Shown here: one piece after another, positions 2,020 to 58,407 of the stretch
Position numbering within the stretch: position 1 is the stretch's first letter
Layout: the number at the start of each line of letters is the position of its first letter
Assembly: GCF_000425365.1 (NCBI RefSeq)
Contig: NZ_AUDH01000003.1
Location: 1-64,000 of the forward strand
Length of the DNA stretch: 64,000 nt
Direction: 5' to 3'
DNA from: Rubritepida flocculans DSM 14296
Lineage (GTDB): Bacteria > Pseudomonadota > Alphaproteobacteria > Acetobacterales > Acetobacteraceae
The notes under the pieces: model-generated
The model's database searches: none
Told to the model about the DNA's origin: nothing
What the model saw: the letters and a program-made list of their open reading frames with translations, nothing else
Translations under genes and position numbers: made by a program

Positions 2020-2628
2020 TCACGCCGCCCCCAGCTTCGCCAGCACCTCGGCGCGCCTGGCCGCCACGCGCTCCTGAACGCCGCGGTAGAGGCTGCCGCC
2101 GTGGCTGTCCATGCCCACGATCAGCGGGCCGAAATCCTTGATGGCGAAGCGCCAGAGGCTCTCGGGGTTGAGGTCGTCGAGGTCCACGTCCTCGATGGCG
2201 GTGATCCAGGTCGTCTCCAGCGCCGCCGCGCCGCCGATGACCGCGAGATAGGCGCCGCCCAGTTCCTGGAAGGCGCGCGCGCTCTCCTCGCGCAGGCCCC
2301 CCTTGCCGATGATGATGCGCACGCCCTCGCGCTCCATCAGCGGGCGGGTGAAGCGCTCCATGCGGTCGGAGGTGGTGGTGCCGATGCACACGGCCTCGTA
2401 GCCCGCCTGGTTGGACCCGGTTGGCGCGACCTTGCGCACGTTCGGCGCGGTGTGGATGACGGCGTGGCCGTTGAGGTCGAAGCGCGTGCGCCGGCCGCGG
2501 TCGAACATGTGGATCTGCGTCGCGTCGCGGATGCCGAAGAGCGTGTCCTGCAGCGTCACCGTGTCGCCCACACGCAGCGCGCGCACCTGGGCCTCGGTGA
2601 TGGGCATGTGGAGGGTGTGGTGCGTCAT
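2020..2628 (-). CDS. Class I fumarate hydratase, beta subunit (TtdB/FumB-type)
   Basis: A 202-residue beta subunit of an iron-sulfur, two-subunit hydro-lyase (fumarase, or tartrate dehydratase) that hydrates fumarate to malate. The family core is present: GDTVTLQDTLFGIRDATQ near residue 20, GTTTSDRMERF near 90, GKGG near 110, and a TTWITAIEDVDLDDLNPESLW-like region near 155. The start at 2628 is preceded by a strong AGGAGG. The first ten codons (MTHHTLHMPI) are repeated twice more upstream by the 97-bp tandem repeat, but only this copy is in frame with the rest of the protein. It lies 13 bases before the flavoprotein gene and after the alpha subunit. Confidence 0.87.
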   Translation of the reverse strand: MTHHTLHMPITEAQVRALRVGDTVTLQDTLFGIRDATQIHMFDRGRRTRFDLNGHAVIHTAPNVRKVAPTGSNQAGYEAVCIGTTTSDRMERFTRPLMEREGVRIIIGKGGLREESARAFQELGGAYLAVIGGAAALETTWITAIEDVDLDDLNPESLWRFAIKDFGPLIVGMDSHGGSLYRGVQERVAARRAEVLAKLGAA

Positions 2629-2822
2629 GTCAGCCTCCTGCCCGCGGCGCGGAGGGTTGGCGTGGCGGCTGCGCGCCGCGGGCGTGGCGAAGCGCGATGG
2701 GCATGTGGAGGGTGTGGTGGGTCATGGCAGCCTCGTGCCCGCGGCGCGGAGGGTTGGCGTGGCGGCTGCGCGCCGCGGGCGTGGCGAAGCGCGATGGGCA
2801 TGTGGAGGGTGTGGTGGGTCAT
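2626..2822 (-). repeat. 97-bp tandem repeat carrying three copies of the fumarase beta translation start
   Basis: The minus-strand start region ATG ACC CAC CAC occurs at 2628, 2725 and 2822, exactly 97 bases apart, and the 70 bases of leader between the copies are also repeated almost perfectly. As 97 is not divisible by three, the two upstream starts read into another frame. From 2822 a 65-codon reading frame runs to a TGA at 2625-2627 that overlaps the true ATG at 2626-2628 (ATGA). Only the downstream copy has a perfect AGGAGG; the middle copy has a degraded ACGAGG version. The arrangement looks like a recent slippage or unequal-exchange duplication that left the real gene readable only from the last copy. 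Confidence 0.9.
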
Positions 2823-2832
2823 GGCGCGGCCC

Positions 2833-3735
2833 TCAGAAGCCGATCTCCACGCCTTCCGGCGTGAAGGTGGCACTCGCCCGCCGGGCCGAGTGGCACTGGA
2901 TGTTCACCGCCACCGGGTTCATGGTGATGTGCGTCGCCGCCACCTCCACATGCACGGCGAAGGCGGTGGAATCCCCCCCCAGCCCCTGCGGCCCGATGCC
3001 GAGGCTGTTCACCGCCTCGGAGAGTTCCTGCTCGAGCTTCGCGCCCTCCGGATCGGCGCAGAGGGTGCCGAGCGGGCGCGTCGCCGCCACCTTGGCGAGG
3101 TGCATGCACAGGTCGCTCGTGCCGCCGACGCCGACGCCCAGGATGGTGGGCGGGCACACCTTGCCGCCGGCCTGGATCGCCGCGTCCACCACGAAGCGCT
3201 TCACCCCGGCGAGGCCGTCGGCGGGAATGAGCATCCTGAGGAAGCTGCCGTTCTCGCTGCCCGATCCCTTGGGGATCATGACGAGGCGCAGGATGCGCGG
3301 CGTCTCGACGAAATCGATGTGGATCACGGGCACATGCGCCCCGCAGGAGCTGTGCGCGTTCACCCGCGTGATGGGATGGACCACGCTGCTGCGCAGCGGG
3401 TGCTCGCGCGTCGCGCGCTCGGTGCCGCGCGCGATGGCCTGCTTCAGCGCCCAGCCGTCGAGCTCCACCTCGCGGCCGATCTCGACGTTGAAGATGGGGA
3501 TGCCCGTGTCCTGGCAGAGCAGGTTCTCGGTGCGCTCCGCCACCGCGATGTTCTCGATCATGGTGGCGAGGACGGATTTCGCGAGCCCGTCCGTCTCGGA
3601 GGCGTCCAGGCGGTGGAAGCCCGCCTTGATGTCGTCGGGCAGGATCTTCAGCGCGCGGATGTAGAGGAGCTTCGCGGCCTCCTCGATCGCATCGGGGCTG
3701 ATGCGCAGCTTTTCGGGCGGGGGGATGACGGACAT
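2833..3735 (-). CDS. Class I fumarate hydratase, alpha subunit (TtdA/FumA-type)
   Basis: A 300-residue alpha subunit of the two-subunit [4Fe-4S] fumarase/tartrate dehydratase family. All three cluster cysteines can be placed: LCQDTGIPIF near residue 85, GGKVCPPTILGVGVGGTSD near 195, and NIQCHSARRA near 280. Length and motif spacing match the family. It precedes the beta subunit gene and follows the TauE-like permease by 9 bases, so all are probably co-transcribed. With the flavoprotein, iron-sulfur and anchor subunits around it, the block could carry succinate through fumarate to malate, or the reverse. Tartrate dehydratase cannot be excluded, but the sdh-like neighbours favour fumarase. Confidence 0.88.
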   Translation of the reverse strand: MSVIPPPEKLRISPDAIEEAAKLLYIRALKILPDDIKAGFHRLDASETDGLAKSVLATMIENIAVAERTENLLCQDTGIPIFNVEIGREVELDGWALKQAIARGTERATREHPLRSSVVHPITRVNAHSSCGAHVPVIHIDFVETPRILRLVMIPKGSGSENGSFLRMLIPADGLAGVKRFVVDAAIQAGGKVCPPTILGVGVGGTSDLCMHLAKVAATRPLGTLCADPEGAKLEQELSEAVNSLGIGPQGLGGDSTAFAVHVEVAATHITMNPVAVNIQCHSARRASATFTPEGVEIGF

Positions 3736-58334: not shown

Positions 58335-58407
58335 ACTTTTGTTTTGGCGCGCAGCCGCCACACCAACCCTGCGCGCGATACGGTCGGCATGTCATGCCGA
58401 CCGTATC
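58331..58407 (+). promoter_or_regulatory. Promoter with an overlapping 31-bp palindrome (operator candidate) before the heme-monooxygenase-like gene
   Basis: TATACT at 58332-58337 behind TG is an extended -10; a weak CTGAGG at 58308-58313 could be the -35. Downstream, GATACGGTCGGCATG at 58377-58391 and CATGCCGACCGTATC at 58393-58407 are perfect 15-base arms around one T, ending 38 bases before the start codon. This is a much longer palindrome than a typical metal box. Confidence 0.6.

Follow-up and report, generated by a model that had tools for sequence, protein, structure and literature searches.

In the window, the whole 64,000-nucleotide stretch of Rubritepida flocculans DSM 14296 analysed here, the start of the fumarase beta subunit gene occurs three times on the minus strand, which raises the question of how a gene start came to be tripled behind the alpha subunit gene and whether the additional copies take part in beta translation. 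As the original prediction had it, the three ATGs (2822, 2725 and 2628) are spaced by 97 bp, ATG 2628 alone is in frame with fumarase beta while 2822 and 2725 are out of frame, and the first copy opens a 65-residue reading frame whose stop overlaps the true start as ATGA; each of these points was confirmed, the spacing also by Tandem Repeats Finder. Two elements had been overlooked: the second copy opens a reading frame of its own, with an AGGAGG just before its end, and the spacer between the starts is a dispersed hairpin (Table 1).

Table 1. Features of the fumarase alpha/beta junction in the window, with the decoy reading frames found at other places
Feature	Position	Strand	Details
Fumarase alpha subunit gene	2833..3735	-	300 aa; stop TGA 2835-2833; Pfam Fumerase, E 4.7e-88; ORF
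Copy 1 of beta start (first ten codons)	2793..2822	-	Decoy; presumed ancestral start position behind alpha
Hairpin 1	2737..2780	-	12-bp stem, arms 2780-2769 / 2748-2737; invariant tip 2767-2750
Copy 2 of beta start	2696..2725	-	Decoy
Hairpin 2	2640..2683	-	Arms 2683-2672 / 2651-2640; invariant tip 2670-2653
AGGAGG ribosome-binding sequence	2634..2639	-	Before true beta start; read from sequence
Decoy ORF 1	2625..2822	-	65 aa; ATGA overlap with true start
Decoy ORF 2	2630..2725	-	31 aa; TGA one base ahead of true start (TGA-C-ATG)
Fumarase beta subunit gene	2020..2628	-	202 aa; true start ATG 2628; Pfam Fumerase_C, E 1.3e-29; ORF
Decoy at L155			37 aa; end -4 nt from true start
Decoy at L107			30 aa; end +5 nt
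Decoy at L334			28 aa; end -1 nt
Decoys at fmt-truA			14-19 aa; end -1 nt in 7 genomes

The fumarase junction in the window and in relatives

Tandem Repeats Finder places the repeat at 2599-2825 (period 97, 2.3 copies, 97% matches) with a score of 433, the highest of its 32 rows in the window and followed by a runner-up of 176. Along the minus strand from 2822 to 2599, starts and spacers alternate (start, spacer, start, spacer, start), and the counterpart of AGGAGG at copy 2 reads CACGAGG, an ACGAGG-like sequence. The leader folds somewhat more stably than in shuffled form (z value -2.15, with 6 of 200 shuffles equally good), and both hairpins are formed.

The alpha/beta locus was searched for in 60 genomes, that of R. 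flocculans included, and was found in 15 of the 20 other genomes of the same genus. One of these, the sister species G018 (L010, 93% identity), carries the identical three starts 97 bp apart. The two 97-bp units of the window differ at 2 of 97 bases and the sister species shares this arrangement but carries substitutions of its own, so that an assembly artefact is unlikely. In each of the remaining 14 genomes of the genus that have the locus, a single start follows alpha without any hairpin, the distance between alpha stop and beta start being -4 to 11 nt in ten and 47 nt in one, with inserts of 374 to 510 nt in the remaining three. Because the junctions of these relatives are hairpin-free and have one start, the spacer is derived; the "leader of the gene" that the original prediction placed in the repeated unit is thus a misnomer, as none of the 14 has such a leader. 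The alignment with close relatives that it had proposed as a check returned the three-copy layout in one sister species but a single start in the others. On these comparisons, the tripled start is a real and derived feature common to two species. The units differ by 2 and 5 bases within the two species and by 6 to 11 between them, which suggests that units exchanged sequence or were re-duplicated separately.

Some relatives carry other material at this junction. Whole extra reading frames of about 500 bases lie between fumarase alpha and beta at L015 and L020, the insert at L015 being a GNAT acetyltransferase gene (Pfam), and L019 has another insert, of 374 nt. Elsewhere in the window, positions 1-260 hold a lower-GC open frame that by eye resembles the end of an insertion-sequence transposase; a Pfam search of these first 260 bases for the suspected remnant gave no match.

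A dispersed hairpin with an invariant tip

The tip of the hairpin, AGCCGCCACRCCAACCCT, occurs 51 times exactly in the R. flocculans genome. A search with the spacer core returned 52 places at E values up to 10 (the fumarase locus counted, some of them weak), and 62 sites were found at up to three mismatches with none for the reversed control. Of these 62, 47 have flanks that belong to one amplified longer repeat, and the remaining sites include hairpins with different stems around the same tip. Stem and tip of the window hairpin together recur at C2:266407-266457 with 96% identity.

Stems differ and yet covary strongly around the invariant tip. A perfect stem of at least five pairs is present at 190 of 266 unique exact-tip sites, compared to 0.24% of 20,000 random places, and the 266 sites display 133 distinct 8-nt arms. 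For the covariation analysis, each distinct 8-nt 5' arm was represented by a single sequence, taken without regard to pairing. In this set of 133, stem cells are paired in 85.7% of cases versus 56.6% in shuffles, with double-sided changes in 468 cells versus 165 +/- 10 and a covariation score of 0.668 versus 0.171, which falls to 0.21 or less when the partner is slid by one to three columns. None of 500 shuffles reaches the observed pairing or the observed number of double changes, a count that is not a strict probability because related sequences occur among the 133. On one strand the 18-nt tip reads GGTTGGYGTGGCGG, a spacing that could allow a two-tetrad quadruplex; some tip variants break a GG run.

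Within the genus, 18 of 21 genomes contain the tip (one mismatch allowed, R. flocculans included; reversed control 0), most relatives having one to nine hairpin copies. Exact matches occur in 43 of 249 genomes of the family (R. flocculans and five of the genus included; reversed control 0) and in 10 of 385 genomes of a class-wide sample (R. flocculans included), where the reversed control gave one match, in one genome. At least 111 stretches of named genomes contain the tip; among the 80 matches listed, 79 belong to what we take, from the taxonomy of the names, to be alphaproteobacteria or simply Proteobacteria, and one to a cyanobacterium, where the stem has two pairs and is negligible. Viral contigs contributed 33 stretches with 37 unique sites, 28 of which have a perfect stem of at least six pairs and 26 a stem of at least ten with one mismatch allowed. 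On three viral contigs (L351, L354, L358), tip-like sequences in opposite orientation with changed letters (GGTTGGCTAGGTGG and GGTTGGCGGGGCGG types) lie beside exact-tip hairpins, and the hairpin family may therefore be broader than the exact tip pattern.

According to a rough gene caller, 82 of 243 sites have co-directed genes on either side, 28 convergent and 3 divergent ones, and 27 fall inside a called gene, with 103 not resolved. ARAGORN found tRNAs at 16 of 22 loci scanned. At 12 of these 16, the tRNA 3' end is followed by the tip after 15-24 nt; 11 are distinct, L201 and L229 being one contig (L179, L197, L201, L205, L211, L226, L230, L233, L271, L282, L303). In three others the tip precedes the 5' end by 20-22 nt, and at L071 the tRNA is distant. 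Parts of the tRNA 3' end are found again on the far side of the hairpin at L197, L203, L230, L221 and L303.

Other arrangements of the same tip were seen. A composite longer repeat with three neighbouring inverted repeats around it is present at window positions 58346-58376 and at some 46 other places of the genome (e.g., L060, L065, L070), by eye often adjoining a stop codon of the opposite strand, and comparable composites with other stems exist in other genera (L163, L184, L189). Groups of two or three same-tip hairpins arranged head-to-tail were observed at L039, L066, L071, L067, L088 and L190; tandem duplication is therefore common for such hairpins.

No described family was recovered. 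Ten loci searched against Rfam at gathering scores gave one tRNA and nothing else, and window positions 2500-2900, searched down to E 10, gave only matches below the gathering score. Six spellings of the tip core are absent from the text of the PMC papers searched, where letters in figures or supplements would escape notice. Judged by title and start of abstract, none of the matches listed in literature searches on REP-like repeats (Acetobacteraceae, Roseomonas), small dispersed repeats, Rickettsia-type elements, palindromes with target duplication, or coupling and repeats describes the hairpin family.

Duplicated starts flanking hairpins at other junctions

Strong direct repeats (score of at least 14) flank the hairpin at 18 of 228 non-tandem sites, compared to 0.35% of 6000 mismatched pairs, and the other 210 sites have no flanking repeat at that score. 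Sorted by hand, the 18 comprise seven duplicated gene starts (L155, L107, L334 and four fmt-truA sites), two tRNA 3' ends and nine arms of neighbouring repeats; given that strong repeats occur at 18 sites and half of these are repeat arms, duplication is seen at a minority of sites. The gene names fmt, and below obg and leuB, are presumptive and were assigned from translated ends, truA excepted.

The duplicated-start layout of the fumarase junction is thereby found at four other places. For three of these, relatives in the genus have a single start. Nine of the 14 relatives read for L155 show an overlap of 31-62 bp between the two flanks, and 10 of 15 for L107 one of 21-33 bp, leaving a single start there; in the remaining relatives, the alignment ended before the junction or one flank was missing. 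The 22 fmt-truA loci comprise seven genomes with a duplicated start, eight with a single start, one repeat locus and six unreadable ones with the motif, so that 8 of 15 distinct junctions are single and 7 duplicated; one of the seven carriers (L400) has kept the duplicated start and lost the tip. The fourth place, L334, is on a viral contig, where two starts likewise flank the hairpin. In carriers at L155, L107 and fmt-truA, two starts flank the hairpin versus one in relatives, and at these junctions as at fumarase the target is present once in hairpin-free relatives and twice in carriers. We read the patterns at L155, L107 and fmt-truA as traces of an insertion that duplicated its target over varying lengths. 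The duplications, that at fumarase among them, measure about 15, 21, 30, 38 and 44 bp, with no fixed length. From this we infer that the hairpin element is mobile and that the flanking duplication is a target-site duplication.

Comparison with known elements reveals both likeness and difference. DDE transposases produce target duplications of fixed length, whereas those flanking the hairpin vary (15-44 bp). Rickettsia palindromic elements are small palindromic insertions that can be translated through and lie in-frame within genes, while here the frame that reads through is a short decoy and the gene that follows it is intact. Two accounts (PMC3733652, PMC3116915) describe REP/REPIN sequences as short, dispersed palindromic repeats with GTAG or CGTC tags. 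The hairpin resembles them as a short dispersed palindrome that is mainly intergenic, single or grouped, with stems differing between families, and it too is a many-copy palindrome (62 sites in the own genome, control 0), 47 of these sites having the flanks of one amplified longer repeat. However, REP loops mostly have 2-5 nt and families are set by the terminal GTAG or CGTC tag (PMC3733652, PMC3116915), whereas in the window-type hairpin the 18-nt tip is invariant and the stem changes. Neither a terminal GTAG or CGTC tag, as read at the window hairpins, nor a conserved stem, over the 266 sites, was found, and CGTC repeats are missing in Acetobacteraceae according to PMC3733652. Unlike REP/REPIN, some hairpin copies are flanked by duplicated gene starts.

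Short reading frames across the hairpin and competing readings

The reading that we consider probable, with some reserve, comprises an insertion, a later tandem duplication and relay reading frames. A hairpin element with a variable stem and the tip AGCCGCCACRCCAACCCT would have entered fumarase beta ten codons in, with a target duplication of about 30 bp. An intact beta start would thereby have come to lie downstream, and the old one, still next to the alpha stop, would have become a decoy. Three starts would then have arisen when the 97-bp unit of start and hairpin was duplicated in tandem. Less certainly, a ribosome leaving alpha might restart at a decoy ATG, open the hairpin while translating the short frame, stop at the next start beside AGGAGG and restart on beta; alpha-beta coupling could thus survive the insertion.

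The decoy frames are consistent with such a relay. In five of five cases, the decoy crosses the hairpin and ends -4 to +5 nt from the true start, as in termination-reinitiation, where an upstream stop lies within a few bases of a downstream start. The chance of ending within -4 to +6 nt is 0.32-0.35 per case (shuffled spacers, random frame), giving a joint chance of 0.012 for the four cases beyond the window, which were not used to frame the idea, and of 0.004 for all five. Measured from the decoy ATG, the closest stop of a long upstream frame is -1 to 26 nt away. Decoy length changes among relatives (59 to 53, 59 to 44 and 110 to 146 nt) are multiples of three in three of three cases, with the frame kept open. 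At L363, in relative G003, the tip of an L155-type hairpin is split by 36 extra bases and the decoy remains open (49 aa, end -4); these 36 bases contain a second small inverted repeat. The coupling of decoy to beta that the original prediction had considered is therefore the better supported half of its interpretation: decoys stop at the true start in the four other places too, although a chance of 0.012 for these is not very small, and the 65-residue form with its ATGA overlap is peculiar to this genome. In the sister species, both decoy copies have 31 residues and stop at TGA-C-ATG, as does copy 2 of the window, while TGC replaces TGA in copy 1 of the window, which has lost its own stop and reads on to the overlap.

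The same insertion and duplication could instead have left a neutral scar, with idle decoy frames and beta started independently by the AGGAGG at 2639-2634. The strength of this ribosome-binding sequence speaks for such a scar, and the decoy peptide is not conserved: four of the six base differences between unit 2 of the two species change an amino acid, and a Pfam search of the 65-aa peptide gave no match. The chance of the decoy-end coincidence is, moreover, no smaller than 0.012. Against it stand the position of all five decoy ends at the true start, the in-frame length changes and decoy starts so near the upstream stop, and we consider a purely neutral scar unlikely, though a serious contender. 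A relay role of the decoy frames is plausible and fits the data; the short frames may carry ribosomes from alpha to beta.

Termination-reinitiation coupling at ATGA and TGATG overlaps is described in PMC6728339, with stop and start overlapping or touching as they do here (ATGA, TGATG, TGA-C-ATG); the first partner there is a gene, and the putative first partner here a remnant of 14-65 codons of a duplicated start. An engineered upstream nonsense frame boosts translation, as PMC13255528 reports, and is likewise a short meaningless frame just upstream of a gene with a strong ribosome-binding sequence beside its stop; the decoy differs from that design in being natural, putatively insertion-made and hairpin-bearing.

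A further reading, compatible with an insertion origin, takes the hairpin as a selected regulatory RNA or DNA site that is bound via its tip and adaptive before beta. The invariant tip on covarying stems would agree with this, as would orthologous positions common to many species, for instance before obg and in fmt-truA. At the leuB junction, however, both orientations occur in different species (by eye), the fumarase site is confined to two species and no known RNA family was matched; we hold such a site to be improbable, if not markedly so. A slippage-prone switch, in which loss or gain of a 97-bp unit would raise or lower beta expression as the original prediction suggested, could draw on two near-identical head-to-tail units and on tandem similar hairpins elsewhere in the genome (L039, L066, L071). 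Yet both carrier species have two units of identical length that diverge separately in each, the 14 relatives have no insert, and unit loss would leave the beta protein unchanged because every unit end is out of frame. With unit number and length equal in both carriers, the switch was set aside as very improbable. If an old leader had simply been duplicated in tandem on the spot, without any inserted element, the head-to-tail units would be explained; this reading scarcely deserves credence, given that none of the 14 other relatives with the locus has the spacer and that the spacer core is a dispersed hairpin.

Beyond the insertion and relay reading of the fumarase junction, we put forward, more tentatively and with less than even confidence, an undescribed alphaproteobacteria-wide class of tiny mobile hairpin with an invariant 18-nt tip and a freely changing stem, which would enter coupled operon junctions and tRNA ends with 15-44 bp of target duplication and leave a relay frame carrying ribosomes across the insert. 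That the tip stays invariant while its stems covary, both throughout a bacterial class and in viral contigs, suggests a trans-acting partner for the hairpin. If the insertion and relay reading holds true, the triple start of fumarase beta would be one case of a general rule, by which a tightly coupled operon can stay intact when a small structured element enters it, since the junction is duplicated in the process and a bridging reading frame is left.
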